Assembly: GCA_903824665.1 (NCBI GenBank)
Contig: CAIJXT010000008.1
Location: forward strand, 26,357 to 90,356
DNA length: 64,000 nucleotides
Source: an uncultured Bacteroidota bacterium
GTDB lineage: Bacteria > Bacteroidota > Bacteroidia > Chitinophagales > Chitinophagaceae
Direction: 5' to 3'
The notes under the pieces are model-generated. The model had not been told where the DNA came from, did no database searches, and was given only the letters and a program-made list of their open reading frames with translations. Positions within the stretch are counted from its first letter, which is position 1. Every line of letters begins with the position of its first letter. Both the position numbers and the translations under genes were made by a program. Positions 5,084 to 59,972 of this stretch are shown one piece after another.

Positions 5084-6602
5084 CGGAAAGGGAAGAAGGG
5101 TCGAAATTATTCGACCCTTTCCCTTTTTTTTGCGTGAAATCCTTTGTGGCATTGATAAGTAGCGGAAGAACGCCGCTCTCAGGATTGGTTCGAAGTTCCT
5201 TATTTTCAAAAACTATCTTTTCAGGGAACATCGAACCAATAATTTGATGTTTTGCCTCCAAACTCGCTTCAGTAAAGAGTTTCGTCATATTACTCAAAAA
5301 ATAAAACCCAAATTCCATTACCTCCTGCTCTTCCGGGTTTTTCTCGTTTAGATTGATTTGCTTTCTTATTAAGCGTTCGATTTCAGGTTCCAATCTCGAC
5401 TTAATACTGCGATACTCGCCAGCATCCAAGGCTCCATCTAACATGAGAGTTTGAGCATTCTGTAGCCTATTGCGGTAGGTTTCAATTTCCCGATCTACTT
5501 TCTCAACTTCAAGCGATTGGTCTTTATTGTTCTTTTTGTAGTGATCAGTAGTAATATGTTTTAACGTTTGCAACAACTTCTTATTACCACTGATTTGATT
5601 TAATAGCCCATAGAACAAGTCATTGGCAATTGGTGCTTTAAAACGCTCTGTACAGCCATCAAAACAATGATAGTAATAATATTTACCACCGTTGCCTTTT
5701 GAGCCACTACCCGTTAAAGTCTTACCACATTTAGCGCATTTTAGGAAACCTCGCAAAGGCAATTCTTCCTGTTTGCTGTTATGGGTCGGAAATCCCAATC
5801 TCTTCCTTCCCAATATAACATCCTGTACAGCATAAAATAAAGCATCAGAGATAATGGGCTCATGTTTGCCCAGCACAATTGTTGCTTCTTCATCTTTATA
5901 GGGTGGAACTACTATCTTGCCAATATAAATGGGGTTGCGAACCATATGCCAAAATACGTTCCTGCTTATCTTCAAACCTTTGGCATTGGCTAATTTTCTT
6001 GCTGCTTCGATGTTATACTGCCCGGTTGCCATCTGCTCAAAAGCGAACTTAACCAATGGAGCATCTTTACTCGGTAAAATGCAAGGTCGGTTGGCTTCGT
6101 CCCTTCTATTAATAAAACCCTTGGGTGCCTGCCCCATCCACCTGCCATCTTTTAACGCCCGTCTCATTCCGGCAATAACATTGAGCGATCTTCTGTCATT
6201 CTCCACCTCGGGTGTTGTAAGATAAACTGCCAGCATTATTTTGTTCTCCGGCACACTCATATCCAACGGCTGTTCAATCGCTTGCGGCTCTATCATCAAT
6301 TTCCCAAGCACACTAATCATGTTGTATGCTTCAGGTGCGTTTCGTGAAAACCTGTCCCATTTCAGAAATAACAGTAAGTCGGCATATCTCTTGTTCTTTT
6401 TCAGGAACTCCAGCATTTTCCTGAACTCTGGCCTTTCAAAGGTCTTAGCTGAGTGATCTTCTTTGTACAGTGCAACTACTTCTATGCCATTGATGGCACA
6501 GTGATTACGCAGCCGCTCTTCCTGGTGCCGTAAACTGTGTCCTTTTTCAGCTTGCTCGTCTGTACTCACCCTGATGTATAGGATAGCTTTCTTCTGTCTC
6601 AT
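5046..6602 (-). CDS. Large serine recombinase / integrase (element A)
   Basis: YIRVSTDEQAEKGHSL resolvase N-terminus, recombinase domain, Zn-ribbon (CAKCGKTL), coiled coil; C-terminus TGIEPVNPP reads through the tRNA-like T-arm. Confidence 0.95.
   Translation of the reverse strand: MRQKKAILYIRVSTDEQAEKGHSLRHQEERLRNHCAINGIEVVALYKEDHSAKTFERPEFRKMLEFLKKNKRYADLLLFLKWDRFSRNAPEAYNMISVLGKLMIEPQAIEQPLDMSVPENKIMLAVYLTTPEVENDRRSLNVIAGMRRALKDGRWMGQAPKGFINRRDEANRPCILPSKDAPLVKFAFEQMATGQYNIEAARKLANAKGLKISRNVFWHMVRNPIYIGKIVVPPYKDEEATIVLGKHEPIISDALFYAVQDVILGRKRLGFPTHNSKQEELPLRGFLKCAKCGKTLTGSGSKGNGGKYYYYHCFDGCTERFKAPIANDLFYGLLNQISGNKKLLQTLKHITTDHYKKNNKDQSLEVEKVDREIETYRNRLQNAQTLMLDGALDAGEYRSIKSRLEPEIERLIRKQINLNEKNPEEQEVMEFGFYFLSNMTKLFTEASLEAKHQIIGSMFPEKIVFENKELRTNPESGVLPLLINATKDFTQKKGKGSNNFDPSSLSVACTGIEPVNPP
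5096..5131 (+). terminator. Hairpin plus T-run directly after the tRNA-like sequence
   Basis: aagggtcgaa-loop-ttcgaccctt followed by ccctttttttt. Confidence 0.6.
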
Positions 6603-6825
6603 TCTTAATGGGGTTTAAATTAATAATGTTGTTTCCCTTTATCTTTTTGGAAGCATCAAAAATTACATCTGCCAATACATACACCCACTCCCTCATTTTC
6701 AGCAATTGCTCATCCGTATATGTATTTTCTTTATCATTCCAGATACTTCTCATTACTTCTAAAGATACCTTATCTGTAAAAGCATCTACTCTAAATTTCT
6801 CAGGCTTTAACGCTTTGCAACTCAT
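6547..6825 (-). CDS. Small protein upstream of and overlapping the serine recombinase; possible accessory/directionality factor
   Basis: 56-bp overlap with recombinase; contains YTDEQLLKMREWVYVLADVIFDASKK, similar to element B 82-aa protein (YTDEQVNELIDTIKKYTRFIYNVVSKRQ). Confidence 0.6.
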   Translation of the reverse strand: MSCKALKPEKFRVDAFTDKVSLEVMRSIWNDKENTYTDEQLLKMREWVYVLADVIFDASKKIKGNNIINLNPIKNETEESYPIHQGEYRRAS

Positions 6826-6870
6826 AAAATTAATATTTCGTGCAAAGTATCCTGTCTTAAAAAACTGCTT

Positions 6871-6916
6871 TCCCGATCAGGATCGATTTTCCCCGATCAG
6901 TACAAATTTTCCCCGA
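6871..6916 (-). repeat. Iteron array (left copy, inverted relative to right copy)
   Basis: Reverse strand reads tcggggaaaatttgtactga tcggggaaaatcgatcctga tcggga (20-bp period). Confidence 0.85.
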
Positions 6917-6927
6917 TTTCAAAAAAA

Positions 6928-7143
6928 TCAGGCAGCATCCATCTCATTTGGTTCGCCAATTTTGTCAAAAATGATTTCTACTTGCTTTATTGTGTAAAAC
7001 CTACCTTTTTTATCTCCGATGAAAGAAGAAAATGGTTGAAGCCAGATCTTTACGGTTCTGGGCTTAACTTCATATAGTGCAGCGAGTTCTTTCAGTGAAT
7101 AGGGCCGCAACGGGATTGTTTTATTCTTGGATATAGTGTCCAT
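6928..7143 (-). CDS. Small HTH DNA-binding protein (paralogue of 9276-9500)
   Basis: IPLRPYSLKELAALYEVKPRTVKIWLQPFSSFIGDKKGRFYTIKQVEIIFDKIGEP. Confidence 0.8.
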   Translation of the reverse strand: MDTISKNKTIPLRPYSLKELAALYEVKPRTVKIWLQPFSSFIGDKKGRFYTIKQVEIIFDKIGEPNEMDAA

Positions 7144-7223
7144 ACCAAACTGTTTAACTGTTAATACGCTTATGTCTTGATTTCATCTTCGTTGTGGAGT
7201 TGTGAGATAGTAGTTTCGTGATA

Positions 7224-8246
7224 TTAATTGTAACGTGTTGTAAATTCATCCATATTTAGATGAAACAGGGAAGCCACCCCTTTATCATTCAGCTTCTGTT
7301 TAGTTTTTAATTCTTTGATCCATTTTTTTACCAATGATTCTCTCTCAATCGGGACATCAAGTTCTTTGGGTTCCCTCCTACGCATCTTTTGCTCATTAAA
7401 TTGCTGTAATAAGTACCGCTTCTGATTGGGTGTGAGGTAGCCGAGGTCATCAGCACGATATAATAAAGATATCATCGACACTTTCCATTTGCGCTTTAAC
7501 TCCCCAAGTAATGGCAGCGTTACACCATTCTCAAAATCACCCCTGATGGCTGCTTCCGGCATCAGGAACTCAGATGCGAAAAGGTTTGCCTCATGCGCAA
7601 CGTCCCTTTCCCAATCTACACTAGTTGAAGTGTGCATAACAAGATGCCCTAATTGAAATGCCAATGAAAACCGTTGACGGTCGCCAAGCAAAGTATTATT
7701 GTAAATAATGATCGGCTGCAAGTCATCGGTTAGCACACAACGGCTATCAACACGCTCTGTACCAAAATCAAAACTTGTGACAACAATTCCTTTGCTTTCA
7801 AACAATTCAACAATTTTCTCAATTATAGGACTATCAACCTTCCATGCCTTCCGTATTTTCTTTGCAATAGTGGCTGGCGTGTTTTTATCGTTAACCTCGA
7901 ATGACGGTAAATCTGACTTCCTTATGTTTAATTCAGATAATAATCGCTGAATATGCAATCTTACGATATTTACATTAGCGTTTAACGGTGTAAGTAGTTT
8001 CTGTGCAACACTATCTCTTTTACGGTAATTCAAATGTTCAGGGTAAATATCATTCTCCTGATTAAAAAAGGAAACGGGAAAATTTGTTTCCTCAGCAATT
8101 AGCCCAATAGCTTCATCGCTGGTGTTCAGATCACCCTTCTCCATTTTACTTAATGTGGTATTTGCCACACCTATCTTCTCTGCTAATTCCAGTTGGGTGA
8201 TCCCCCTCGCCTCTCTCGCTAAAACAATCATGCTCTTGTTTATCAT
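7224..8246 (-). CDS. XRE-family HTH plus ImmA/IrrE-type metallopeptidase repressor
   Basis: ARGITQLELAEKIGVANTTLSKMEKGD HTH; FQLGHLVMHTS..E..ANLFASEFLMP (HExxH-like region degenerate to QLGHL, still ImmA-like). Confidence 0.9.
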   Translation of the reverse strand: MINKSMIVLAREARGITQLELAEKIGVANTTLSKMEKGDLNTSDEAIGLIAEETNFPVSFFNQENDIYPEHLNYRKRDSVAQKLLTPLNANVNIVRLHIQRLLSELNIRKSDLPSFEVNDKNTPATIAKKIRKAWKVDSPIIEKIVELFESKGIVVTSFDFGTERVDSRCVLTDDLQPIIIYNNTLLGDRQRFSLAFQLGHLVMHTSTSVDWERDVAHEANLFASEFLMPEAAIRGDFENGVTLPLLGELKRKWKVSMISLLYRADDLGYLTPNQKRYLLQQFNEQKMRRREPKELDVPIERESLVKKWIKELKTKQKLNDKGVASLFHLNMDEFTTRYN

Positions 8247-8537
8247 ATCATCTTCTTTTCTCTTTTCGGGACAAATCTAAAAAACAATTTGTAATTTGCC
8301 CAATTTATTTTCCTAATTGTTTTCCGTTTTATTATTCTGATACTGAGCGCATCGCAATAAGTTGTGCGAAAATTGGCATTTTCACGAAAAACCGAACTGC
8401 CGTGAATAATACCTTACATTTTCAAACATTTTCAAACGCCCCGCGAATCCCCCACGAACCCATTTCGAATCCTGAAATCGTGATTTCGTCTCCCCCTGGT
8501 ACATCTTACAGCTACTTTTTCGATCAAAAAATTGCAC

Positions 8538-8655
8538 AAACGTTTAAAAAAATGCAACAACATGCACAAACTGTCAACTTTTGTCAAAAAAGTGCAGAAA
8601 ATGCTACAAACGTTTAAAAAGTATCAATTTTATTCAATCTTGTTGAGAAACGTTT
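8538..8655. promoter_or_regulatory. Candidate triple operator between repressor and rightward operon
   Basis: Perfect palindrome AAACGTTT three times at 8538-8545, 8608-8615, 8648-8655 in the divergent intergenic region. Confidence 0.6.
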
Positions 8656-8724
8656 AGAAAGTGTTAGAAACAGGAAAGTGCCACTTTGCGGTGATAGCAT
8701 CTTTGTGTCGCAAAACAAAGAAAT

Positions 8725-9273
8725 ATGCGCACAGCAAAGATTATAGACCTCGTACCTCACTCACAACCTGGCCGCAAAAGGCAGGTAGTCGCCATTGATA
8801 AACTTTCCAATGCCGCATGGAATTTCGCCCATACCATTTTATGGCCGCAGCAAACATTCTGCAAAGAAGATCTGAACGGGACATTGGAATCTATTCAGTC
8901 TTACTTTGAGTTGTCAACGGATAAGAAAAAAGCGTTTACCAGCTTTTGCGAACGTATTATACTTACAGACCGATACGTTTCCGCCCGTCCTGAAAGATAT
9001 GTCCCCAACCCCTCCGTGTGGTTCAACAGAAATTATGAATTCGGTTTTGCAGGAACTAAAAGCTGGTATCAGCGGTTACAACTACAACGAGAAGAAATAC
9101 CCGGCTATTTGCAACAAAGCTCCGTTATCGCCAGTTGCTACCTTGACTATTCGCTAAAGCCCTCTGCCAAAGTATTTACCCGGTGCCGGAAGAAGCTGCT
9201 TGAATTGAAAGCAAACAAGCTACTTCAATACTTCTACAATTCTATTATTCATCTCAACTACTCAATACAATAA
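8725..9273 (+). CDS. Hypothetical protein, first gene of rightward operon of element A
   Basis: 182-aa ORF, 3 bp upstream of HTH gene start. Confidence 0.7.
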   Translation: MRTAKIIDLVPHSQPGRKRQVVAIDKLSNAAWNFAHTILWPQQTFCKEDLNGTLESIQSYFELSTDKKKAFTSFCERIILTDRYVSARPERYVPNPSVWFNRNYEFGFAGTKSWYQRLQLQREEIPGYLQQSSVIASCYLDYSLKPSAKVFTRCRKKLLELKANKLLQYFYNSIIHLNYSIQ

Positions 9274-9275
9274 TA

Positions 9276-9500
9276 ATGAGCAAGACAATCAACACAATTG
9301 CTGCTACAAGTATTCCGCTACAACCCTACACGCCTTTGCAGCTTAGTGCCATGTATCTGGTAAGCAAAAAGACATTTAATAAATGGTTGCAGCCATTTGC
9401 TGAAGAAATCGGTGAGCGGAAAGGACACTTTTTTACCGTCAATCAGGTGCAGACAATTATTGAAAAAATTGGTTTTCCTGGCACTTTAATCGCTGAATAG
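9276..9500 (+). CDS. Small HTH DNA-binding protein (paralogue of 6928-7143)
   Basis: IPLQPYTPLQLSAMYLVSKKTFNKWLQPFAEEIGERKGHFFTVNQVQTIIEKIGFP. Confidence 0.8.
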   Translation: MSKTINTIAATSIPLQPYTPLQLSAMYLVSKKTFNKWLQPFAEEIGERKGHFFTVNQVQTIIEKIGFPGTLIAE

Positions 9501-9510
9501 CATAAGTAAA

Positions 9511-9570
9511 TCGGGGAAAATTTGTCCTGATCGGGGAGATTTTGTCCTGATCGGGGAATATCGCTCCTGA
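9511..9570 (+). repeat. Iteron array (right copy), 3 x 20 bp
   Basis: tcggggaaaatttgtcctga tcggggagattttgtcctga tcggggaatatcgctcctga. Confidence 0.9.
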
Positions 9571-9821
9571 TGGCGAAAGCAGTCCAGAATGGCAATAGAC
9601 CTTTGTCCTACAAAAGCAAAAAAATGATGAAACCAGACACAGTAAACGCAACCTCAAATTTCAGCAATGTGATGCTTACAGGAACAATACTGCTTGCCAA
9701 TGTGGACATGAATGGTTTGCTGGACTATAGCCTCAAAGCATTTTTTGGCGGAGCAATATGGCTTGGGTATAAGATAACTGCTGACTACCTGGAACGGAAA
9801 CGTAAATCAAAAAACAAATGA
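9570..9821 (+). CDS. Small membrane protein (start possibly at an internal ATG)
   Basis: Hydrophobic segments VMLTGTILLANV and LKAFFGGAIWLGYKI with basic C-terminus; annotated ATG overlaps last iteron. Confidence 0.6.
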   Translation: MAKAVQNGNRPLSYKSKKMMKPDTVNATSNFSNVMLTGTILLANVDMNGLLDYSLKAFFGGAIWLGYKITADYLERKRKSKNK

Positions 9822-10300
9822 GTACAGCAAACAAAATTCTGGCGGGCTCTGTAATAGGAGCCGGAGCCATTGCCGCCATTGCTTACCTGAAAAACATTAA
9901 AAGAGCGCAGGCACAATTGGAAATTATCCCTGTTATTAACATCCACCAGATAAGTCTTGAAGGACTAACCGTAAGAGTGGATGCTTTACTGAAGAACCCA
10001 ACAGGTGCAAGTTTTAAAATCAAGTATCCATTTGTCAAGTTGAATCACAAGGATGCACTGTTAGGCAGTTCTCAGGCTGTCAATAAGGACATAAAAATAC
10101 CCGCATTTGGGCAGGTGATGATAAAGGATATAATGATTAAAGTGCCCGTGCTTAGTTTTTTCTCGGTTGGCTACGACATTATCAAAGCCCTGATGAACAA
10201 GCAGCCCATAACACTGACCATATCAGTAATCACAACAGCCGATTTAGGCGTAACGCAGGTAGCTATTGAACACAAACAGGACATGACACTAAAAAAGTAA
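9818..10300 (+). CDS. LEA/WHy-domain-like membrane-anchored protein
   Basis: N-terminal TM (ILAGSVIGAGAIAAIAYL) then beta-rich VDALLKNPTGASFKIKYPFVKL.. typical of LEA14/WHy folds. Confidence 0.6.
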   Translation: MSTANKILAGSVIGAGAIAAIAYLKNIKRAQAQLEIIPVINIHQISLEGLTVRVDALLKNPTGASFKIKYPFVKLNHKDALLGSSQAVNKDIKIPAFGQVMIKDIMIKVPVLSFFSVGYDIIKALMNKQPITLTISVITTADLGVTQVAIEHKQDMTLKK

Positions 10301-10303
10301 ATA

Positions 10304-12148
10304 GTGGAAGCAAGAAAGAAACGAAATATTAAAAGCGGTGAGCAGTACAGCCGATTGTTCCCGGAAGCAAATACAGCTACGCATACCATAATGACAAATG
10401 CGGGAGTAGGCGATACTGTGGCATTTATCCCGAAAGTAGTGCGTAAAACACTCGATCATACAAAGGCTATTGCTAAAGTACTGAAAGGAAACAGTGACTA
10501 TGACACATGCCGTAATATCTGGCAATTCGTGTACGACCACATTGCGTACCGCAGGGACAAAGATGGCTATGAGCAGATAAGAAGCCCGGCAAGATCATGG
10601 CATGACCGTCAAGCAGGAGTTGATTGCGATTGTTACACCACGTTCATCAGCAGCATACTTTCCAATTTAGGTATTGCGCATAAGTTGAGAATTACGAAGT
10701 ACAGCAAACCCTACTTCCAGCACATCTATCCTATTGCCAACTGTAACGGCAGGGACGTAATACTGGACTGTGTTACAGACCAATTTGATTTTGAAGTACC
10801 ATACAGTGAAAAAAAAGACTATCCAATGGATCTACAATACTTAGATGGCTTAGATGATATAGGCTACAATGACAACCGCCTGTTTGACGGCACGGGCGAA
10901 ATGGAAGAATTAGGGAAGCTGTTTAAAAAGAAAGCAAGCGCACCTGCCTCCGGTGGCGGCAATAAAAAGGGCGGTGGCGTATTCAAAAAGATCGGCGCTG
11001 CCGCAAAAAAGGTCACAAAAGCAGCCGGAGGAGCGGTAAAGAATACAGGTAAGAAAATAGCTACCACAGCTAAAAAAGCCAACCTGAAAAAGGTGCTGAA
11101 TGTCGTTAACAAAGTAAATCCGGCAACGGTAGCCCTTCGTAATGGATTGTTGGCAGGCATGAAGCTGAATGTAAGTAATGTGGCAAAGAGGCTCCGGTGG
11201 AGTTACCTCACCCCCGATCAGGCAAAAGCAAAGGGGATGCAGATGGACAGGTGGAATAAGCTGGTACAGACTAGACAAAAGCTGGAGAACATCTTTTATG
11301 GTGCTGGTGGCAACCCTGCCAATCTGAAAAAGGCAATACTCGGTGGTAAAGGCAATAGCGATAAGGCGGTAAATGGCTTTGATGGCTTTGATGGCTTGCG
11401 AAACCGCAGTGATGCAGCACAAATGAGCGTACATACTTCTTTGTCGCAACTGCTCGGCCCTGAAATATACTATTCTGAAAACGGATATCAGTCGCTTGGT
11501 GAATTAGGAGAACCGGTTACCCTTGCGGTAGTTGCCGCAGCATCGGGCGCAATCGCAACGATTGCCGGGCTTATCAAGAAAATTGGCGACATCTTCGGTG
11601 GCAAGGGTGAAGGCTCTAAAGATTTCAACGAGGCTGAAAATGCAGTAGCTGAAAAAGAAACTCAGGCGATCACCCAACAAGCAAACGAAGCTGGTGTATC
11701 ACCTGCCGAAACATTTACGCCTACAAGCCCATCTGCAACCAATGAAGGCGGTGGCGGATCGCCCGGAAGTGCCACACCCCCGTCTGCTTCATATGACAAC
11801 CCAATGCCCAGCGACAGCGGTGGTGGAACTACTACGGCTGTTTCGCCACCAGCGCAGACGAGTACCGAAGCAACCGAAAGCGGAGAAAAGACAGCGGCAA
11901 AAGCTGCCACAGATGCAGGCAATAACGAAGAAGGATTTTGGAACAAGCATAAAAAGTGGCTGCTTCCGGTGGGAATAGGTATAGGAGGGTTAACGATAAT
12001 AGCCATAGCCGCCTCTGCCATGAAATCGAAATCCAATACCCCTATACCTGCAAAGGCAAAACCTATGCACGGGCTGCCATCCAGAAAAAACCACCAAAGA
12101 AGCAAAGGAAAAAAGCAGGGCAAGAAAAAATCAGTCAAACTGTTGTGA
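10304..12148 (+). CDS. Transglutaminase-like cysteine peptidase domain protein with Lys/Ala-rich region, NGFDGFDGL motif and C-terminal TM
   Basis: VDCDCYTTFISSIL ... YFQHIYPI ... VILDCVTDQF (Cys-His-Asp transglutaminase-like triad); C-terminal WLLPVGIGIGGLTIIAIAASAM. Confidence 0.7.
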   Translation: MEARKKRNIKSGEQYSRLFPEANTATHTIMTNAGVGDTVAFIPKVVRKTLDHTKAIAKVLKGNSDYDTCRNIWQFVYDHIAYRRDKDGYEQIRSPARSWHDRQAGVDCDCYTTFISSILSNLGIAHKLRITKYSKPYFQHIYPIANCNGRDVILDCVTDQFDFEVPYSEKKDYPMDLQYLDGLDDIGYNDNRLFDGTGEMEELGKLFKKKASAPASGGGNKKGGGVFKKIGAAAKKVTKAAGGAVKNTGKKIATTAKKANLKKVLNVVNKVNPATVALRNGLLAGMKLNVSNVAKRLRWSYLTPDQAKAKGMQMDRWNKLVQTRQKLENIFYGAGGNPANLKKAILGGKGNSDKAVNGFDGFDGLRNRSDAAQMSVHTSLSQLLGPEIYYSENGYQSLGELGEPVTLAVVAAASGAIATIAGLIKKIGDIFGGKGEGSKDFNEAENAVAEKETQAITQQANEAGVSPAETFTPTSPSATNEGGGGSPGSATPPSASYDNPMPSDSGGGTTTAVSPPAQTSTEATESGEKTAAKAATDAGNNEEGFWNKHKKWLLPVGIGIGGLTIIAIAASAMKSKSNTPIPAKAKPMHGLPSRKNHQRSKGKKQGKKKSVKLL

Positions 12149-12177: not shown

Positions 12178-12810
12178 ATGGCAAAACAAAAGAAAGGCGG
12201 CAAAAATAAGTTTGCCCAGAAAGCAAAACAGGCTGGATTTATTGACTTTCATCAGCGATTACAGACGAAGGACAACATAAAAAATTCAGCCCTCGAAACA
12301 GGCAAAGATTTACTGATTGGTGTAATAGGTGGCGGTGTGGCGGGTGCGGCAATAGGTAAACCCTCCCTCCTTGTTGGAATCGGGTTAACAGGTGCGGGAC
12401 ACTTCACGGACAACCACTTGTTAAAGCTGTTCGGTATCGGGTTGATGGCAGCCAATGGCTTCCAAAGATCAAAATCTGTGAACGGGCTGGAAGGGCTGGA
12501 CAAACAAGCAATCCTCAACCGCATACAAGCCTACAAAGACAATTTTTCTGAGAAGCTTTTTATAGACAAACTGACTGGCAGACGTTCTGCTAACACTGAA
12601 TCTGCAAATGGTATTGGGGAACTCCAGTTCTTCAATTACCCAAACGATGTGAATGGCGCATACGATGAACTGGCAGCCCTTGAGGACTTGGAACAGCAAA
12701 TTGCACAAAGCGGTATCGACCAGATGCAGGTATCGGGCATGGGTGAGTTTGGAGAATTTGGGGAAATGGGAGAACTGGCATCTATAGACGCATCAGATTT
12801 AAACCTGTAA
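12178..12810 (+). CDS. Gly-rich hydrophobic (probable membrane/virion) protein; likely start 12178 rather than 11956
   Basis: DLLIGVIGGGVAGAAIGKPSLLVGIGLTGAG; contains SVNGLEGLD, SANGIGEL, GMGEFGEFGEMGEL. Confidence 0.6.
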   Translation: MAKQKKGGKNKFAQKAKQAGFIDFHQRLQTKDNIKNSALETGKDLLIGVIGGGVAGAAIGKPSLLVGIGLTGAGHFTDNHLLKLFGIGLMAANGFQRSKSVNGLEGLDKQAILNRIQAYKDNFSEKLFIDKLTGRRSANTESANGIGELQFFNYPNDVNGAYDELAALEDLEQQIAQSGIDQMQVSGMGEFGEFGEMGELASIDASDLNL

Positions 12811-12863: not shown

Positions 12864-13580
12864 ATGTTAGAATTCAACGGAATTGAAGAGTACAGCAACC
12901 AGGGCGCACTGCTTGGCGTGGACGGGCTGGATGATGCGGAACTGTTAGGTGCATTACGGAGCATGAACCCCATCAAACGTGCCAAGACAGTCAACAAGCT
13001 GGCAAACAGCGGCCCTGCCAGCAAGGGGTCGAGGGCGGAAATGGAAAAACACTTCGGTGAGCTGCCGCCCAATATCAAGCAGTCATTGGTAAAAGGGGAA
13101 TTGCGCCTTGCGGACACAATCGTCTATTCTATCAAGAAGGTAGGAGCCAAGACCATAAAGATGTTTGAAACGCAGGACACGAAGGAAATAGGCTTGCGCA
13201 ACATTTCCAATGCCAAACTGCCAAAGAACCAGATATTGCTGGTAAGCGGCATTATCCTTCTTGCTGGTACGTCTGCGGATGCGACCAATGACAAGGTAAT
13301 GGCAACGGAATACAAAGGCATTGAGTTTTTTCCGGCAATCGCATCGGGAGAGCTTAACCTGAAGTCCAACAAAAAGCAGATAGTACCGGAAACAGGCTGC
13401 GGTGTATTCAAGACAGGTAACTATCATGGCGTACCTGCTGGCTATTACAAGCTGGCTAATCCCCGGCTGATCCTTGATGATGTGCTGATAGAACTGACCA
13501 TTGAGTTAGGCACAATGGACGGCATACCTGCCAATACCTACCTGTATGCGGCATTGCATGGCACGATCACCACTCCATAA
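12864..13580 (+). CDS. Candidate major capsid/structural protein of element A
   Basis: 238 aa, helical N-terminal ~75 aa with GVDGLDD motif, then beta-rich body (ANPRLILDDVLIELTIELGTMDGIPANTYLYAALHGT); position upstream of lysis genes. Confidence 0.45.
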   Translation: MLEFNGIEEYSNQGALLGVDGLDDAELLGALRSMNPIKRAKTVNKLANSGPASKGSRAEMEKHFGELPPNIKQSLVKGELRLADTIVYSIKKVGAKTIKMFETQDTKEIGLRNISNAKLPKNQILLVSGIILLAGTSADATNDKVMATEYKGIEFFPAIASGELNLKSNKKQIVPETGCGVFKTGNYHGVPAGYYKLANPRLILDDVLIELTIELGTMDGIPANTYLYAALHGTITTP

Positions 13581-13631: not shown

Positions 13632-14201
13632 ATGGCAAACCTGTTAATCAAACGGCTACCCAACATACCCTATCTGCCCTATATAGCCATGAGCATTGCC
13701 GTTCCCGCATTGCTGGTGATATTCAGTAAGAAAGCAAAGGCTGCAAACCAAAGGGCATCAACGCCCTACAATAACCTGAAAGCCTTTCTTACCATGATCC
13801 AGTATGCTGAAGGCACTTATGGGCAGGACGCTTACCGTATGCACTATGGCGGACAATTATTTAACAGCTATGCCCGTCATCCCAATATCGCTATTACCAA
13901 AAGTGGCATTACAAGTACAGCCGCTGGCGCATACCAGATATTGTACCGGACATGGACAGGCGTACAACAGGCATTGCAACTGCCGGACTTTAGCCCGGCA
14001 AGCCAGAACAGGGCAGCCATTGAACTGATCCGGCGAAGGGGTGCATTGCAAGCGGTGTTGGCGGGACGGTTTGAAGATGCGGTGGAAAAATGTAAAAAAG
14101 AATGGGCATCACTCCCCGGTGCAGGTTATGGGCAGCGGGAACGTAGCCTTGCACTACTCAGCGATGTGTATAGAAGTGCGGGTGGGCAGGTAGTAGTATA
14201 A
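13632..14201 (+). CDS. Membrane-anchored lambda-R-like (GH104) lysozyme
   Basis: MIQYAEGTYGQDAY...TSTAAGAYQILYRTW...LPDFSPASQNRAAIELIRRRGAL...WASLPGAGYGQ; N-terminal TM IAMSIAVPALLVIF. Confidence 0.9.
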   Translation: MANLLIKRLPNIPYLPYIAMSIAVPALLVIFSKKAKAANQRASTPYNNLKAFLTMIQYAEGTYGQDAYRMHYGGQLFNSYARHPNIAITKSGITSTAAGAYQILYRTWTGVQQALQLPDFSPASQNRAAIELIRRRGALQAVLAGRFEDAVEKCKKEWASLPGAGYGQRERSLALLSDVYRSAGGQVVV

Positions 14202-14219: not shown

Positions 14220-14630
14220 ATGAGCGAAAACAATGCGCCAGCAATCAACATAGCGGGCATCGTCAAAAAGCGGTTTGACTTGCTGATAACCGCAGGGGAT
14301 GCAACCTACACCCAAACATTCGAGCTGGATAAGACAATTGCCTTTGTAAAGGGAGTGTTGCTCACATCGGATAAGGACGACCTGATGTATTACAGGGGTT
14401 CGCAAAAGATAGAGATCAACAGGCAGGAAATATTCCCTGAAGGCTATGAAAGCAAATTGGTTATCAGCGGTATCAACTGCCCTGTCAACCAGCGGTACTA
14501 CCTGACGGGAAATATGCCCATCGGCAACGGGCTTATAAAGATTGACTACAAGGATAAGGATGACAGCCGTGCGCCATTTGAGGCATACCGCATTTCGCTG
14601 TACCTCGATTGTGAACTGAAAGCCTATTAA
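14220..14630 (+). CDS. Beta-rich hypothetical (candidate minor capsid/jelly-roll protein)
   Basis: 136-aa ORF in tight operon between lysozyme and further beta-rich ORFs. Confidence 0.5.
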   Translation: MSENNAPAINIAGIVKKRFDLLITAGDATYTQTFELDKTIAFVKGVLLTSDKDDLMYYRGSQKIEINRQEIFPEGYESKLVISGINCPVNQRYYLTGNMPIGNGLIKIDYKDKDDSRAPFEAYRISLYLDCELKAY

Positions 14631-14649: not shown

Positions 14650-15105
14650 ATGCTGACCAATGTAATTATTGTGCCTATCCCCATAACAAGACGAGGGCAG
14701 AAGGTCTTTTTCGAGGTAAGCATCCCAAAAGACGTGAACAGGATAATCGGGATCGAAGCAAGCATAACTGGCTTATCGGGTATAACGCTGGTCGAAATTA
14801 TTGGCAGGCAGGTTGCTGGGATGATAAAGCTGCAAGCCGAAGGTATAGCGAACCAATGCTACAGCACTCAGGCACATATCGGCATCAGCAGTTTAGACAA
14901 GAACCAGCCCGGCTTCAACCCTGCATATACAGCTTGGCAGCAAAACGCATATGTAGGCAGTTATAACCGGGAACCGGAACAAGTAAGGATCGGCAATACG
15001 AACACGCTTTACGGCAGTTATACGGACATATATGGCAAAAGAATAAGCAGGGATTTGGTTTACACTATCGGGCTGTATTTATGGACGGAAAGAAAAGACA
15101 ACTGA
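14650..15105 (+). CDS. Beta-rich hypothetical (candidate structural protein)
   Basis: 151-aa ORF, operonic position. Confidence 0.5.
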   Translation: MLTNVIIVPIPITRRGQKVFFEVSIPKDVNRIIGIEASITGLSGITLVEIIGRQVAGMIKLQAEGIANQCYSTQAHIGISSLDKNQPGFNPAYTAWQQNAYVGSYNREPEQVRIGNTNTLYGSYTDIYGKRISRDLVYTIGLYLWTERKDN

Positions 15106-15106
15106 A

Positions 15107-15439
15107 ATGACACAAGAACTGGCAATAGCCTATATCCGAAAAAGAACGGCAGAGCTTGGGCAAGGCGATCAATATTACCTCCGCTTCCGGCATTATGTGC
15201 TACCCCCATTGGGTGAACAGGTAATAACAGGAGGGACAGCATTATTCGTGCTGGTTGACCCATCACCACATATCAGGGTAGAAAATGAAACAGGATTGTT
15301 TGACCTGACCGAAACAGCAGTCAACGAATTGCAATACGAGTACCAGGGTATATTCCATATAACCAACTACAGCCCTTCACTGCAACACGTTCAAATGATA
15401 CAGGTAATTTTTAAAAACGAAGCACAATGCCACAGATAG
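15107..15439 (+). CDS. Beta-rich hypothetical (candidate structural protein)
   Basis: 110-aa ORF starting 2 bp after previous gene; overlaps next. Confidence 0.5.
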   Translation: MTQELAIAYIRKRTAELGQGDQYYLRFRHYVLPPLGEQVITGGTALFVLVDPSPHIRVENETGLFDLTETAVNELQYEYQGIFHITNYSPSLQHVQMIQVIFKNEAQCHR

Positions 15440-16254
15440 AAGAAAAGTTTGACCAGGACAGGGTTGACGGTCTCAAAAGATACCTTCAAAGAGAGGCATC
15501 GAAGAACAGGAAGAAGGACTTTGAAATTGTAGTGGATGGCTTTAAGGTAGTGTCCCGTACCAATAACGTTGACGAATTTGATGAGTATGAACAGGAACTC
15601 AGGAATGATACCAGCAGCCTCAGTATCCTCATCTATGATGGTCCGACAACCAACCGCAATACGAAGCATTCGTTCTACTTCAATGACGAACGAACCACAA
15701 ACCGAAAAGCGGTGAACGGATTGGGCAGCCTTGGGGAAATTGATCACCTGGTGCAGATGAGGATTGATGAAAATAACAGGGATCATATGGTTGCGAAGCT
15801 GCGGGAAGACCTGGAGCGGACACAAGATGAACTGGATCAGGCTTTGGAGTACAATGAAACGCTGGAACAGACGGTCAACACCTTAAAAAGTAAGAAGCTG
15901 TCCGACAACAACAACCTCGGAGACTTACTAAATGCGTTCATCGGCTCTATAGTCAAATCCAATGCCAGCAAGCTGCCGGGGGGTGAAATGCTTGCTGGGC
16001 TATTTGCAGGTGCGGAAACGGAAAAACAACCAATAGAACTCCCACAGGAAGGGGAGCCGTCTAAAGTAACCTTCAAAAAACAAAAACCAGCGGACGAACC
16101 AGATGAAATGACCCAAAACCGGATGGCATTGATTGCGGATCTACAGAAAAAACTCAATGAACTGCAAATGGTGGGCTTGTTCTCCATTATTGAACACCTG
16201 ACCACCAAACCGGAACAAATACAAACAGTAATCGAAATTCTTAACGACAAATAG
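15427..16254 (+). CDS. Two-domain protein with coiled coil, NGLGSLGEI linker
   Basis: N-terminal ~95-aa domain, KAVNGLGSLGEIDHLVQM linker, then DLERTQDELDQALEYNETLEQTVNTL coiled coil. Confidence 0.6.
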   Translation: MPQIEEKFDQDRVDGLKRYLQREASKNRKKDFEIVVDGFKVVSRTNNVDEFDEYEQELRNDTSSLSILIYDGPTTNRNTKHSFYFNDERTTNRKAVNGLGSLGEIDHLVQMRIDENNRDHMVAKLREDLERTQDELDQALEYNETLEQTVNTLKSKKLSDNNNLGDLLNAFIGSIVKSNASKLPGGEMLAGLFAGAETEKQPIELPQEGEPSKVTFKKQKPADEPDEMTQNRMALIADLQKKLNELQMVGLFSIIEHLTTKPEQIQTVIEILNDK

Positions 16255-16495: not shown

Positions 16496-17188
16496 GTGTA
16501 CACGAACAATGAACAAGCAAGTAGCGAAAGGGAACTTACCGTCCGTGAAAAAATACAATACTCCTTGCTGGGTGTCCTTGTGTTGGGAGGGGCGGTAATG
16601 CTTGGGCGGACAATTGTAAAAAAAGCCACCTCCAACAATGAGCAGCGCAAAACCTATACAGAGGGCAATACAGCAACGTATGCCAAGCAGATAAAAATGG
16701 CTTTTGACAATGACGGCTGGTGGGGAACGGACAAAGATGTTTTACGGCAGGTAGTACGGGTAATACCAAGTAAGGGCGAGTTCAGAAAGGTAATGACCTC
16801 TTACCAAAAGCTATACGGCAGAAACCTGCTGGCAGATATGCAGGGTGAATTAAAAACAACAGAGTACAATGAAATACTGGCAATCATTTCAACAAAGCCG
16901 GAGCATGGCGAAGAGACTGTCAACGAAGTAACGGCTGAAAAATTGCAAAGCTGGGCAAAACGGGCAAGGGCGGCATTTGAGATCAGCTATGGCCCGTTTC
17001 CGGGAACAGATGAGCCAGCAATCAGGGCGGTGTTCCTTGAAATACCGACACAGGAAGCATACCGGAAAATGGCAGCCGTGTATCAATCCATGTACGGTAA
17101 CAGTTTTACGGACGACCTCAAAAGCGAACTTGAATTATGGGAATACGCACCGATGATGCAGCTTATTTCCGGCAAACCAAAAAATTAA
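16496..17188 (+). CDS. TM-anchored protein with two annexin-like repeats
   Basis: TM IQYSLLGVLVLGGAVMLG; repeats WGTDKDVLRQVVRVIPSKGEFRKVMTSYQKLYGRNLLADMQGEL and PGTDEPAIRAVFLEIPTQEAYRKMAAVYQSMYGNSFTDDLKSEL (GTDE...YxxxYGxxLxxDLxxEL annexin signature). Confidence 0.7.
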   Translation: MYTNNEQASSERELTVREKIQYSLLGVLVLGGAVMLGRTIVKKATSNNEQRKTYTEGNTATYAKQIKMAFDNDGWWGTDKDVLRQVVRVIPSKGEFRKVMTSYQKLYGRNLLADMQGELKTTEYNEILAIISTKPEHGEETVNEVTAEKLQSWAKRARAAFEISYGPFPGTDEPAIRAVFLEIPTQEAYRKMAAVYQSMYGNSFTDDLKSELELWEYAPMMQLISGKPKN

Positions 17189-18204
17189 ACATGGCAACGA
17201 AAACGAAAAAGGCAGCGACAAAAAAAAGCGGTAAAGCAGCACCTCCCAAACAACCGAAGACACGAAAGGCAAAACAACCGATGGGAAAAGGTGCAACTGC
17301 CAAACCTGCCGCAAAGGATAAGACAGGGCAGATCATCATGACCACCCTTGCTGTAGGTTTAGCAGGTGTCGCTGGATACTTCGGTTGGCAGTACATGAAA
17401 AAGCGCATGGCTACCCGCAACGATGCGGACATAAATATTACCGATACTGATTTTGTTACTCCGGTTATCAAACCCATAAAACCCATAAAGGAAACGCCTA
17501 CCCCTTCACCCGGAAACTATGCCAAAAGCCGCAATGACGATTTCCCTTTAAAGAAAGGCAGCAAGGGTGACCGGGTCAGGTCTTTGCAACAGGCATTGAT
17601 TGACAAATATAGCAGCAGTGCTTTACCCAAATTCGGAGCGGATAGTGATTTCGGAACTGAAACTGCCAATGCGCTGAAGAAGTACGGAATACCAATACCC
17701 GTTACAGAAAGTGCATTCAACCTGCTCACACAGGCAGGTGGTAATGTGGGAAATGCAGCCGGAATAGCAAACAAATTACATGCTGCCGCATCAAATAAAA
17801 ATTTTGATAGTGTGCTGAGTTTGCTCAAAAACATCAGGAACAAACAGGACTACCAACAAGTTGGCAACAGTTTCCTGCAATTACGGTTGCGGGGAGTAAG
17901 GCAGACCCTCGTCAACGGACTACTCAGCAGCTTTGATAATGCAGAGCAGAAACAAAAGATAGGTATGGAGTTCGTTCGTATGGGTTTGCAATACAATGGC
18001 AGCAAGTGGAGCCTGGCTGGTTTCGATGGGCAGCCGGTAGTAACAACGGAACCCGCCACCGTTTGGATCTCTTCCGCCCAAAGCCTGCAAGTGCCTGCAA
18101 TGATGGTGTTGGGTAATGAAGTAACACGCAGGTTGGACTACACCCTTTTTGAAAACAACAACAAGTATTTTTTAGTCAAAACACAATCAATCAAATATCT
18201 ATAA
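17137..18204 (+). CDS. TM-anchored peptidoglycan-binding protein (likely start 17191)
   Basis: Lys/Ala-rich N-terminus, TM MTTLAVGLAGVAGYFGWQYM, PLKKGSKGDRVRSLQQALIDKY...FGTETANALKKYG PG_binding_1-like. Confidence 0.75.
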   Translation: MGIRTDDAAYFRQTKKLNMATKTKKAATKKSGKAAPPKQPKTRKAKQPMGKGATAKPAAKDKTGQIIMTTLAVGLAGVAGYFGWQYMKKRMATRNDADINITDTDFVTPVIKPIKPIKETPTPSPGNYAKSRNDDFPLKKGSKGDRVRSLQQALIDKYSSSALPKFGADSDFGTETANALKKYGIPIPVTESAFNLLTQAGGNVGNAAGIANKLHAAASNKNFDSVLSLLKNIRNKQDYQQVGNSFLQLRLRGVRQTLVNGLLSSFDNAEQKQKIGMEFVRMGLQYNGSKWSLAGFDGQPVVTTEPATVWISSAQSLQVPAMMVLGNEVTRRLDYTLFENNNKYFLVKTQSIKYL

Positions 18205-18205
18205 C

Positions 18206-18613
18206 ATGAAAAACAGACACAAAAGAAGAACAGGCAATGGACATGTCCGGCACATCGTAGTACACAACACGGGAACAAGACCGGATATGCGGGTTAGGGA
18301 ACTCGACAAGCTACCTTATCACTACATCATTACAAGGGGCGGCAAACTGCTTAACCTCAAACCTGTCCGTAAAGAAGACAAAACAGTAGAAGTGGCATGG
18401 CTGGGTGGGCTGGACAGGTATGGCAGGCACACCGACAACCGAACGGAAGGACAAAGCGACACTTTGTTTAATACGCTCGTGTTGTTGACAGAACGTTTTC
18501 CCGAAGCACAGATAACACCTGCAGACAAGCTGTACCTATATGGCTATGCCAATCCCGGCTTTGACCTGATAGCGTGGCTAAACGAATACATTCCCGCCTT
18601 TCTCGCAGCATAG
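18206..18613 (+). CDS. N-acetylmuramoyl-L-alanine amidase (amidase_2-like)
   Basis: HIVVHNTGTRPDM...PYHYIITRGGKLLNL...YGYANPGFDLIAWLNEYI. Confidence 0.75.
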   Translation: MKNRHKRRTGNGHVRHIVVHNTGTRPDMRVRELDKLPYHYIITRGGKLLNLKPVRKEDKTVEVAWLGGLDRYGRHTDNRTEGQSDTLFNTLVLLTERFPEAQITPADKLYLYGYANPGFDLIAWLNEYIPAFLAA

Positions 18614-28041: not shown

Positions 28042-29682
28042 TTAGTTTTTAATATAGATGGTATTGGCTTCGTAGTCAAACCCGTTTAACTCAAAAGCTC
28101 CTTCAAGTTCAGTGAAGCCTCTCGCAAAAAGGTACTCATCGATATCTGATTTGAGCGTATGTCCTTCGTAGTATGGCTTTAGGCCCACCTCCGTCATAAT
28201 AACCTTAGTGTTCTTCAAGAGATTGTCGGCACCCTGGAACACCAAGAGCTCTGCACCCTGCACATCAACCCACATTATATCTACGCCGTCTATCTTGTTA
28301 GCAGCACTCCAGTTATCGAGCGTATCTGCTTGTACTTTGATCTCGTTTTGTACAAGATTTTGTCCGAAAGGCGTTCCATTCAACCCGTCAATGAATTTGA
28401 ACATGGATGATGCACCTATATTCGCAACAGAGCTTTTTTCAGGGTCAACAGGATAAAAAGACACTTCTCCACTTTCATTTCCCAATGCTATGTTGTGAAT
28501 TTTCACTTTCTCCTTTCTTTGGTCATTCATTGAGTCCCGATGCTTAACGCATAACTGGTAGGAATCGGGGACAGGCTCAAATGCATGGATATCAGCATCA
28601 GGGAAAATGTTTGAAAACTCGATACTTTGACCCAAATGCCAGCTACCTATGTCAAGGATACAGCTAATTTTGCCAAGGTCTGTTTTCTCTAAAAGATGTA
28701 CGAGTCTTTTTGCTACCATGCTATTACGATTGGCCTCTGCAACTATCTTATCCTTCAGACTCCAACTGGAATTTTTTTTTTGGTCTTCTGCCACCGTTTC
28801 TAGGTTTGGCTCCCTTGCTAAAGTTTCTATGATTTGTTGAGCGTTAAATATCTCTCCTTCATGGTTGTACGGGAATTCGGTCGGTTGTCCCGAAATATTG
28901 TATTTACTAAAGACCGAATGTCGCAACTCTGGTTTTATCGTAGGTTCACTGGCTAGTATATTAGTATGAATATCATACCCGAATTGCGAGGGCGTATTGC
29001 CGATCCAGCACACCACCGATGGCATACCCAGTGCCGCAGCCGCATGTTGGCAAAAACTGTCAATAAAAAGCCTTTTATGGCTCATAGTTATAAGCGTAGC
29101 CACTGCCCTAAAATCGGCCTGTAGCGGCGTTGTATTTTGTAACGGAAACTGGTCCTCCCTGCGTATGTGCACAACATTGTAGTGGGGTGCAAAAGCATTC
29201 ACAACCTGCTGCGCCGTTGCCATTGGCAGATCACGTGTCCACGAGTATTTATTAGGCTGGTTGGGTGCACCGCCATTCGTCTGAATTAGCATAATGGGTT
29301 TCTCTGACCCAAAACTCTTACCATAAAACTCACGTTCCCGGTTATTGATGAAAAGCTCAGGTTGCTCGCCGTTGTATTTTACGCCGAACATCTCGCACCA
29401 TACCTGTATTAGGTGGCCTTTGCGGTTAATAAAGTCCGTTTCCAGATATGGATTATGCAAAAAGGTATTCACTTCCTGCCCTTCAATATGATCTTGGTAG
29501 AAGTAGTTTAAGTTATTAAAGTTAAAAACCTTATCCACGTTGGGATTGCAGAGAAACACTTCTGGGTAGCCGGTTATCACGTAGAGCTTATCCTTTGGGT
29601 ATTGTGCTTTTATTGCCTTGCATACTGCTGTGCCAGCTATGCTTTTGCCTATGCCGCCATCTATCTGGAAGATAATTTTCAT
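28042..29682 (-). CDS. GT9-like glycosyltransferase fused to FkbM-family methyltransferase
   Basis: N-terminal heptosyltransferase-like region (SHKRLFIDSFCQHAAAALGMPSVVCWIG); C-terminal ILDIGSWHLGQSIEFSNIFPDADIHAFEPVPDSY...VDIMWVDVQGAELLV. Confidence 0.8.
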   Translation of the reverse strand: MKIIFQIDGGIGKSIAGTAVCKAIKAQYPKDKLYVITGYPEVFLCNPNVDKVFNFNNLNYFYQDHIEGQEVNTFLHNPYLETDFINRKGHLIQVWCEMFGVKYNGEQPELFINNREREFYGKSFGSEKPIMLIQTNGGAPNQPNKYSWTRDLPMATAQQVVNAFAPHYNVVHIRREDQFPLQNTTPLQADFRAVATLITMSHKRLFIDSFCQHAAAALGMPSVVCWIGNTPSQFGYDIHTNILASEPTIKPELRHSVFSKYNISGQPTEFPYNHEGEIFNAQQIIETLAREPNLETVAEDQKKNSSWSLKDKIVAEANRNSMVAKRLVHLLEKTDLGKISCILDIGSWHLGQSIEFSNIFPDADIHAFEPVPDSYQLCVKHRDSMNDQRKEKVKIHNIALGNESGEVSFYPVDPEKSSVANIGASSMFKFIDGLNGTPFGQNLVQNEIKVQADTLDNWSAANKIDGVDIMWVDVQGAELLVFQGADNLLKNTKVIMTEVGLKPYYEGHTLKSDIDEYLFARGFTELEGAFELNGFDYEANTIYIKN

Positions 29683-29722
29683 TTCTTGGGGATATTTTTT
29701 GAAGGATTGAAATTAGCTGAAT

Positions 29723-31636
29723 TTATTGTTTTACAAACCGCTGAAAATAAATACCATTCACACGCACCACATACACTCCTGCTGGCAATGATGCTACATC
29801 TATCACAGCATGGTTATCTTCCTTAGTCATCTTTATACTGCTGAATGACTGACCCATGCTATTGCTCACAGAAATGGTTTGTATTTTGCCCATGGCTGTT
29901 ACGGTTAGTACGTTATGCGCGGGATTAGGGTGTAGCTTTATTCCCTCTAGATGCTGCGATATTGGTTCATTAACACTTACTGCCCCTTCGTTTATAGTAT
30001 GTGCTGCGGATGTAGTAGTATCGTAGCAACCGGTAGCTGCTGTTGACGACACACGTGCTGTTATAATATCCGTGCCAGCACTTTTGGTATAGGTAGTAGT
30101 GGGCGTACTTGTGGTAGCAAACAGCACACTGTTTTTGTACCACCTAATGCTGTAGCTGCTGCCTGCACTGCCCACGGTAGCATTTACTGTTACTATACTG
30201 CCTATTGCGGCAGATGTTGCAGGAGATGATGTGAGCGATATAGTAGGTGCTGTAAGTGGCGTTACAACCATATCTATGGTATTGCTGCTGGGGTAGCCAA
30301 TAAAGCTGCATATGTCCACACCCGTATATACACAGCGCACACTATCTCCTCCTTCTGTGGCAGTGGCTGGGTAGGTGTATGTTGCGGTTGTTGCCCCCGG
30401 CACTATTACGCCATTCTTATACCAGCTAAAGCTCATAGTGCTGCCGCCTGTAGTAGTAGCGGTATATGTTACCGGGGTGCCCACACATACGGTATCATTG
30501 GGGGTCACCGTAATGCTTACTGTGGAGATACTTGTGGGATTGAAAGTGACTTTACGGATACGGCGGCCACCAACATCAGAAATATATAGGTTACCGCATG
30601 GATCAAACGCTATATGGCTTGGATCCCATATAGAAGCCGCAGTAGCAGGTCCACCATCTCCTGCCGATGCCGAACTTCCATTACCGACCACGAGGTGGAG
30701 TATCCCGGAAAGATCTATCTTATATATACGATTGTTAGGATGATCGGAAATAAATAACTGGCCGGAAGTGTCTAAAGCTAAGAACCGTGCGCCCATTGTC
30801 GCAGCCGTCGCAGGAATTCCATCCCCAGTATAAGCCCATGCTCCGTTGCCTGCAATGGTTGTAATAATTCCGGCAGTATCTATCTTTCGTATCCTGTTAC
30901 TCAAAGTGCTGCCTGCTGTTTGTGCCAGGTACACATTACCTGTACCATCTATTTCCACCCCCCACGGGGCTACAAGGTGTGCAGCGGTGGCGGGCCCACC
31001 ATCTCCCAATCCCACGGTAGAACCTCCACCAGCAATAGTGTTAATGATACCCGAAGCATCTATTTTCCGTATCCGGTTGTCATAGAAAGCACCGATATAA
31101 ATATTACCCATCGCATCAACACGTACATCTTGTGGGTTATACAGGTTGGCAAGTGTAGCAAGTCCTCCATCTCCTCCGTAGCTTCCTGCCCCAGTACCCG
31201 CAATAGTAGTGATGATACCAGTTGCCATATCAATTCTCCTGATCCTGTTATTTGGCGGGTCAGCAAAATACAGGTTCCCTGCAGTATCCAAATCTATTCC
31301 TCCTGGCCCTCCGAGACGGGCAGCGGTTGCAGGACCGCCATCGCCAATATATCCGCCCATTCCCGTACCGGCTATTGTTGAGATAATACCACTGGGAGTA
31401 ATCTTTCTAACTCTAAATGAATTCAGACCATCAACAATATAACAATTTCCCTGTCTATCAAAAACAATTCCAGATGGGTTAGGAATGCCTGCGCTTGTAG
31501 CGGGAACCCCTATTCCACTAAAAACTGAAGAACCGGTTCCAGCAAATGTTGTAATGGTTTGCGCTGATGATTGCAGCGAGATAAAAAGGACGAGTAACCA
31601 ATTCCATATCTTCATAACAATACCTGTTTTCCTCAT
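29723..31636 (-). CDS. NHL-repeat secreted protein with Ig-like and T9SS sorting domain
   Basis: Repeated GIITTIAGTGxxGYxGDGGPATAA motifs; C-terminal LHPNPAHNVLTV...LPAGVYVVRVNG. Confidence 0.9.
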   Translation of the reverse strand: MRKTGIVMKIWNWLLVLFISLQSSAQTITTFAGTGSSVFSGIGVPATSAGIPNPSGIVFDRQGNCYIVDGLNSFRVRKITPSGIISTIAGTGMGGYIGDGGPATAARLGGPGGIDLDTAGNLYFADPPNNRIRRIDMATGIITTIAGTGAGSYGGDGGLATLANLYNPQDVRVDAMGNIYIGAFYDNRIRKIDASGIINTIAGGGSTVGLGDGGPATAAHLVAPWGVEIDGTGNVYLAQTAGSTLSNRIRKIDTAGIITTIAGNGAWAYTGDGIPATAATMGARFLALDTSGQLFISDHPNNRIYKIDLSGILHLVVGNGSSASAGDGGPATAASIWDPSHIAFDPCGNLYISDVGGRRIRKVTFNPTSISTVSITVTPNDTVCVGTPVTYTATTTGGSTMSFSWYKNGVIVPGATTATYTYPATATEGGDSVRCVYTGVDICSFIGYPSSNTIDMVVTPLTAPTISLTSSPATSAAIGSIVTVNATVGSAGSSYSIRWYKNSVLFATTSTPTTTYTKSAGTDIITARVSSTAATGCYDTTTSAAHTINEGAVSVNEPISQHLEGIKLHPNPAHNVLTVTAMGKIQTISVSNSMGQSFSSIKMTKEDNHAVIDVASLPAGVYVVRVNGIYFQRFVKQ

Positions 31637-31637
31637 T

Positions 31638-34982: not shown

Positions 34983-35072
34983 AGAATTATAGTTTATAAA
35001 TATTATTTAATAGCAAATGAAGTAAACAGATGCAAAATTGTTTGGGGTAATAAATTATTATTTTTAATTTAA

Positions 35073-35501: not shown

Positions 35502-35996
35502 AAGAGAAAAAGTTTAGTTGGTTTCAATTTCAAATATATACAATTGTATTTTTCCGACAAAATAAATTTTAATGATTCTTCATGATTTTAAAAAAAAATA
35601 ATCAAAACACGTTGTAGTCATCTAAGGTAGACATTCAGTACGGCATTTTTTTCTCCTATGACCACTGTGTATATTTCTACACTGTCTTGTTCCGGCATAG
35701 TTTTATGCAACACAGCTACTACCTTTAGAGCAGTAGAGCCATTACCGCTAACGCTTGAATTATACTGCACCAACTCTCCAATTCGGGGAAGCGCAAGAAG
35801 TATTTATATAACCTCCACTTGTGTCCATAGGGTATGTCCGTTACGTCTGTCTATAAAAAAAATGTACACGTCAATCATACGAAATCACTATTTAAAGTAA
35901 GACCACAAAAGTATGCGTAATAAATATAAATGTTTGCTGAGACAAAACAAAATATCTTCGCATTGCGCATTGTTTTACTTAAATTACTTTTACTTC

Positions 35997-36251: not shown

Positions 36252-36253
36252 CA

Positions 36254-37150: not shown

Positions 37151-37194
37151 AAACATATCTAAAACGATTTCTAATAACTACTATTGACAGTGAA

Positions 37195-58333: not shown

Positions 58334-59968
<1,635 letters not shown>

Positions 59969-59972
<4 letters not shown>

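Follow-up and report, generated by a model that had tools for sequence, protein, structure and literature searches.

The window analyzed here, a 64,000-nucleotide stretch of DNA from an uncultured Bacteroidota bacterium, contains a block of genes on the forward strand that includes a gene for a 614-residue protein with a transglutaminase-like fold (hereafter the TG gene and TG protein; Table 1). Its open reading frame is the one given in the preliminary description of this DNA; it has a GTG start, and the homologues begin at the same residue. The gene order, namely p9570, the LEA-like p9818, TG, p12178, the coat-like p12864, p14220, p14650, p15107, p15427, the annexin-like genes and the amidase, is kept, and profile searches detected the core block genes in 70-82 of 83 loci; more distant loci have the same layout with diverged sequences. 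The beta-rich minor proteins of the block are minor jelly-roll-like proteins. In one genome (G556; locus L171, 3962-5080 in flipped coordinates), the LEA-like protein and the TG domain form a natural fusion, which hints at a joint function. A separate observation concerns the annexin-fold proteins with an N-terminal transmembrane segment (TM) inside this phage structural block (16496-18204), as bacteria seldom encode annexins and a virion would not be expected to contain them.

Table 1. Features of the TG gene block and associated genes, in coordinates of the window
Feature	Position	Strand	Support or remark
Small MerR/HTH-like protein, upstream of block	9276..9500	+	Recurrent, 49 loci; synteny
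p9570, small conserved protein	9570..9821	+	67/83 loci
p9818, LEA_2-like protein with N-terminal TM	9818..10300	+	82/83 loci
TG protein, 614 aa	10304..12148	+	GTG start
Transglutaminase/papain-like domain, about aa 10-176	10331..10831	+	AF2, Foldseek, DUF553
Catalytic Cys108 codon (DCDCYT)	10625..10627	+	Invariant, 54 homologues
Catalytic His140 codon (QHIYPI)	10721..10723	+	Invariant, 54 homologues
Catalytic Asp155 codon (LDCVTD)	10766..10768	+	Invariant, 54 homologues
Putative processing site L180-x-G182, right behind TG domain	10841..10849	+	Conservation, linker edge, gene splits
Conserved L203-G204 island, disordered linker	10910..10915	+	Column conservation
VNGFDGFDGL motif, aa 356-365, between two ordered helical segments	11369..11398	+	Conservation, pLDDT
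Conserved L401-G402 island, before hydrophobic helix	11504..11509	+	Column conservation
Hydrophobic helix, aa 406-424	11519..11575	+	Hydropathy 2.06
C-terminal TM, aa 553-571	11960..12016	+	Hydropathy 2.04
M588-x-G590 motif, between TM and basic tail	12065..12073	+	G590 0.98 conserved
p12178, small hydrophobic Gly-rich protein, basic N-terminus, motif-rich C-terminal half	12178..12810	+	78/83 loci
p12864, coat-like protein, single jelly roll aa 80-238	12864..13580	+	AF2, Foldseek
Lysozyme/endolysin with N-terminal TM	13632..14201	+	phrog_90 3e-45
p14220, beta-rich minor protein	14220..14630	+	79/83 loci
p14650, beta-rich minor protein	14650..15105	+	76/83 loci
p15107, conserved small protein	15107..15439	+	76/83 loci
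p15427, coiled-coil protein, VNG aa 96-98 between N-terminal domain and coiled coil	15427..16254	+	
Annexin-like protein with N-terminal TM	16496..17188	+	Pfam Annexin 1.2e-7
Second annexin-like protein, with PG-binding-like region	17137..18204	+	
Amidase-like protein	18206..18613	+	Amidase_2 0.004; 2e-17 in homologue L165
Strawberry-notch-type helicase, 1571 aa	20923..25638	+	
RecA/AAA-type ATPase, LNG aa 278-280 in linker before ATPase domain	25650..27113	+	
Serine recombinase	58365..59972	-	Closest match of element-linked recombinases in G048 and IMG/VR contig

The TG protein is composed, in order, of the TG-fold domain, a basic helical segment, a hydrophobic helix, a disordered tail, a TM and a basic C-terminus. 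AF2 modeling with 54 homologues was confident for aa 10-175 (pLDDT about 75-98). Beyond this domain, the model has a disordered linker at 178-254, ordered helical structure at about 255-350 and another helical region, which includes the hydrophobic helix, at 380-460; a long disordered stretch and the C-terminal TM follow. The previously described Lys/Ala-rich segment (about aa 205-260), NGFDGFDGL sequence (aa 357-365) and C-terminal TM are all present.

Fold and catalytic triad of the TG domain

The closest Pfam family to the first ~176 residues is DUF553 (PF04473, transglutaminase-like; E = 4e-4). The window protein scores 20.2 bits, just below the gathering cut-off of 20.5, and 36 of the 54 homologues match the family at E-values up to 0.01. 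Structure prediction of the domain, set beforehand as a test, returned a transglutaminase/papain-like fold. In Foldseek searches against the PDB, 3isr (a putative Cys protease of Cytophaga), 4xz7 (a TGase), 3kd4 (a putative protease of Parabacteroides) and LapG ranked at the top; the top six matches, comprising putative Cys proteases, a TGase and LapG, are all of one fold and score a Foldseek probability of 1.00, at modest E-values of 0.005-0.06. The AF2 secondary structure (helices 65-79, 95-100 and 108-121; strands 126-132, 139-147 and 150-153) places the Cys at a helix start and the His and Asp on later beta strands, the arrangement of TG/papain-like enzymes.

The proposed triad was found in the motifs DCDCYT, QHIYPI and LDCVTD, and the conservation check bore it out, with Cys108, His140 and Asp155 invariant in 54 of 54 aligned homologues and kept in more distant copies as well. 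The Cys is missing from just two sequences, short stand-alone TG paralogues that have Gly or Ala in its place. Both belong to one genome (G011; L024 1985-2431 and L045 6197-6661, each on the minus strand) and keep the His and Asp; they are possible regulators or decoys of the enzyme.

The suggested membership of a transglutaminase/NlpC superfamily is upheld for transglutaminase by DUF553, AF2 and Foldseek and not for NlpC/P60, whose profile had no Pfam match in the TG protein or its homologues. The Ulp1/AVP fold was absent from the top 50 Foldseek matches, which are TG/papain-like, and no meaningful sequence match to solved structures was obtained for the TG protein or the coat protein. Fold and Cys-His-Asp order are common to the TG protein, the DUF553/transglutaminase-like superfamily (PF04473, PF01841) and LapG-type Cys proteases; unlike in those enzymes, the domain here shares its chain with a basic helical segment and a C-terminal TM and is encoded in a coat-gene block. 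The same fold is also used by transamidases and by hydrolases of non-protein bonds.

Coat-like protein and nature of the element

The coat-like p12864 (238 aa) was predicted by AF2 to form one jelly roll (pLDDT 83), with pLDDT over 90 for most residues of aa 80-238 and a low-confidence N-terminus (aa 1-60) that carries two or three copies of the motif described below. Its best Foldseek matches are jelly-roll capsid proteins (EhV-201, SPV1 VP4, PBCV-1 and the FLiP penton) at low TM-scores of 0.2-0.45, and Ena spore fibres are also among the matches. With one predicted jelly roll, the protein differs from the two-jelly-roll coats of Bamfordvirae.

Linkage between the coat and TG genes was examined in 395 genomes of the class by a search that used only the coat profile and yielded 51 matches in 35 genomes. 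A TG gene lies 1.6-3.8 kb upstream, on the same strand, for 47 of the 51. Among the four matches lacking a full TG gene, two retain partial TG sequence at a contig edge, one begins at the end of its contig, and the fourth (G551, contig C41) was rejected as a genuine coat gene without TG because it is a truncated remnant. With these exceptions explained, the TG gene has the coat linkage that characterizes the viral maturation protease class.

A scan of 85,462 species genomes gave 124 TG relatives, and the best 80 of the 124, which were kept, are all recorded as Bacteroidota (Chitinophagales, Cytophagales and Flavobacteriales). Their distribution is patchy, with several TG copies in some genomes. 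As expected of a prophage, the structural block is accompanied by repressor, recombinase and lysis genes: repressors of the HTH/M78 phage type in 30 loci, serine recombinases in the window, G048 and an IMG/VR contig, a recurrent holin-like protein near the block, and the lysozyme and amidase within it. Dam methylases also occur nearby. In Persicobacter, the TG gene resides on circular replicons of 47.6, 48.8 and 53.2 kb (L181, L182 and L183; CP012854.1, CP012856.1 and NZ_AP025302.1); the two smaller ones, whose sequences were examined, carry the block together with par genes, and these replicons may be phage-plasmids. A search for the G048 flank in one genome of the same genus found diverged flank sequence only and established no empty site. 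TMs are predicted in several block proteins, which suggests that the particle contains a membrane. A tailed-phage origin was rejected, as no tail, portal or terminase family was found in the block with Pfam and PHROGs.

A different possibility is that the element specifies a non-viral protein assembly, such as a fibre, appendage or contact structure, equipped with a processing enzyme. The Ena matches of the coat-like protein would agree with this, as would the finding that no terminase or packaging ATPase (FtsK/HerA-like) was recognized near the block by Pfam or PHROGs, the only P-loop candidate being the 25650-type RecA/AAA ATPase. The phage-type HTH/M78 repressors, the holin-like and lysis genes, the recombinases, the viral contigs, the circular 47-53 kb Persicobacter replicons and the patchy multi-copy distribution all speak for a virus instead, and a non-viral assembly appears quite improbable. 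The element is apparently a widespread and undescribed prophage family of Bacteroidota. It occurs in three IMG/VR contigs and is absent from 50,697 named phage records; set against the coat gene in 35 of the 395 class genomes, this would mean, if the viral assignment is true, that a major chromosomal virus group has been missed.

Shared motif and split TG genes

An NG motif had been reported as common to the TG protein and other element proteins. It was indeed found there, in a broader form, phi-[N/S/D]-G-phi, NG being one version of a hydrophobic-x-Gly motif in which Gly is preceded by N, S and D in 37, 38 and 25% of cases, respectively. Six element proteins of the window contain 18 occurrences of phi-[NDS]-G-phi versus 2.75 expected, a count reached in 0 of 2000 shuffles, compared with 7 versus 4.0 in the other element proteins and 21 versus 16.8 in the rest of the window. 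Over the 83 loci, enrichment amounts to 4-9x in TG, p12178, p12864, p14220 and p15427 and about 4x in the annexin-like proteins and p19466, against 1.17x in background ORFs and none in p14650 and p18657, although counts across related loci are non-independent and conserved positions carry more weight. For p12178 the enrichment is 4.9x, and for p15427 it is 8.8x over shuffles with 81% position conservation. In distant lineages, the TG protein is 2.6x enriched and the neighbouring genes only weakly (1.79x versus 1.47x in other ORFs). The occurrences at aa 127 of p12864 (a predicted beta strand) and aa 82 of p14220 (a probable jelly-roll strand) are probably structural.

The most conserved columns in the disordered linkers of the TG protein are L180-x-G182, L203-G204, V356-x-G358, L401-G402 and G590. 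L180 and G182, at the edge of a disordered linker, are 100% conserved, and V356 and G358 are conserved at 0.96 and 0.98 in a region with a local pLDDT of 55. In the 25650 ATPase, L278 and G280 are invariant in five homologues, and this linker motif hints that the ATPase, too, may be processed and may belong to the virion or the packaging machinery.

Three lineages (Aquimarina, G172 and G556) have a split TG gene, and in each the second ORF opens at the motif site L180-x-G182, beginning with MELHRLDGLD, MTRIAYLGSA and MAGNTIYLNGIEP, respectively. The tree requires three changes, and well-supported branches force two of these, with some rows on long branches, so that splitting at the motif involved at least two independent changes. 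In the split Aquimarina copies, the TG half carries its own C-terminal TM. A further split gene, in G257 (L168), was left out, as its break falls inside the helical segment and is probably a frameshift.

The motif could alternatively be a docking or hinge short linear motif that binds coat or other element proteins, with the TG domain acting elsewhere or being recruited without cutting. Several motif repeats in p12178 and p12864, as expected for multivalent docking, gene splits that leave the motif on the second half, and the two catalytically dead stand-alone paralogues are in line with such a role. The strictly conserved triad and the invariant L-x-G right behind the catalytic domain, between precursor segments, which is a typical processing-site layout, argue the other way. 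We regard docking as a serious rival to a maturation protease, if an unlikely one.

Considerably less probable is capsid cross-linking, with the TG protein acting as a true transglutaminase or isopeptide ligase. The TGase fold would suit such an enzyme, and a review describes DUF553 as acting on peptidyl glutamine (PMC10318531). Cross-linking is disfavoured because the recurrent motif contains neither Gln nor Lys and tolerates Ser or Asp; given the similar shares of N, S and D before Gly, an Asn-based isopeptide cannot be general, and this variant was rejected since Asn is freely exchanged for Ser or Asp. The earlier suggestion of a protease or ligase acting on the motif is thereby narrowed to its first member, a predicted protease being favoured by the coat block and the motif.

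Proposed proteolytic maturation and comparable systems

A maturation protease is the best reading because the TG fold, the full triad and the obligate coat link occur together with hydrophobic-x-Gly motifs between the protein's own segments and in its partners. Specifically, the TG gene may encode a virion-morphogenesis Cys endopeptidase of a jelly-roll prophage that cuts virion proteins at the motif, a proposal to which we assign about an even chance. From the computed gene, fold, triad, block membership, motif enrichment, linker conservation and splits at the motif, we infer peptide hydrolysis as the chemistry, the motif as scissile site and maturation as the timing. The product would serve in virion morphogenesis in a temperate element that has a jelly-roll coat, its N-terminal TG-fold domain acting as a cysteine endopeptidase. 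While particles assemble or afterwards, virion proteins, the TG protein included, would be cut in flexible linkers at hydrophobic-[N/S/D]-Gly sites. The TG precursor would yield the enzyme, the basic helical segment and membrane-anchored segments, and its partners (p12178, the N-terminus of p12864, p15427 and probably the 25650 ATPase) would be trimmed or separated. The coat-like proteins of Aquimarina (L111, L119, L122, L124 and L125) do not have the ~50-aa motif-bearing N-terminus, so coat processing cannot be universal. The motif renders the protease claim directly testable.

The TG domain might instead be a virion-associated entry or cell-wall enzyme, that is, a membrane-anchored Cys amidase or endopeptidase for crossing the peptidoglycan or envelope, with no connection to the NG motif. 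Cell-wall peptides are cut by papain/TG-fold enzymes, among them PeiP, itself a Foldseek match, and the TG protein is TM-anchored and adjoins lysis genes. Yet the block already has a lysozyme, an amidase and PG-binding-like proteins, the TG protein has no attached wall-binding domain, and the conserved L-x-G islands and the splits exactly there would be left unexplained; this role is considered unlikely.

A maturation protease of this kind can be compared with several known systems. Tailed-phage prohead proteases (HK97 gp4, T4 gp21) are serine proteases of other folds; like the putative enzyme here, they are maturation proteases linked to a capsid, but no tailed-phage genes were recognized in the TG block. 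The adenovirus protease and related enzymes that mature the particles of eukaryotic jelly-roll DNA viruses are of the Ulp1 type (clan CE). Adenovirus-type systems and the TG element alike link a Cys protease gene (a putative one here) to jelly-roll coat genes and have hydrophobic-x-Gly sequences (candidate sites here) in linkers of several virion proteins, whereas the fold here is that of transglutaminases and no sequence relation is claimed. Related proteases of Polintons and virophages are covered in PMC4028283 and PMC4409740. FLiP and phiCjT23 (Finnlakeviridae and relatives), tailless Flavobacterium phages, resemble the element in their Bacteroidota hosts, jelly-roll coat and lipid content (a membrane being suggested here by TMs), and differ in their size of 6-9 kb and double jelly-roll coat, whereas the module here by itself exceeds 10 kb and has one jelly roll along with the TG gene. 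FLiP lacks a packaging ATPase, and proteases go unmentioned in the same survey of prokaryotic double jelly-roll viruses (PMC5894146), as do both protease and transglutaminase in the phiCjT23 paper (PMC9719478).

No description of the element group was found in the open-access literature on annexin, transglutaminase, strawberry notch or tailless Bacteroidota prophages. To our knowledge, if the reading is true, the element would be the first prokaryotic jelly-roll virus group with a Cys maturation protease. At somewhat less than an even chance, these loci could represent a widespread but hardly noticed group of temperate Bacteroidota viruses that are tailless, probably contain a membrane and have a single jelly-roll coat protein. 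They would be matured by a TG-fold Cys protease that cuts its own segmented precursor and several partner proteins at hydrophobic-x-Gly sites, a solution convergent with the adenovirus-type protease and undescribed for prokaryotic viruses. If true, this would bear on the origin of maturation proteolysis in jelly-roll DNA viruses.

Two minor observations concern genes that accompany the element. Several genes at 27191-38400 of the window, including an FkbM methyltransferase (28042-29682), are common to the block-carrying IMG/VR contig and are possibly cargo for surface-glycan change. In G048, a restriction-modification-like gene pair lies just upstream of the element repressor (L043, flipped 6579-10896).
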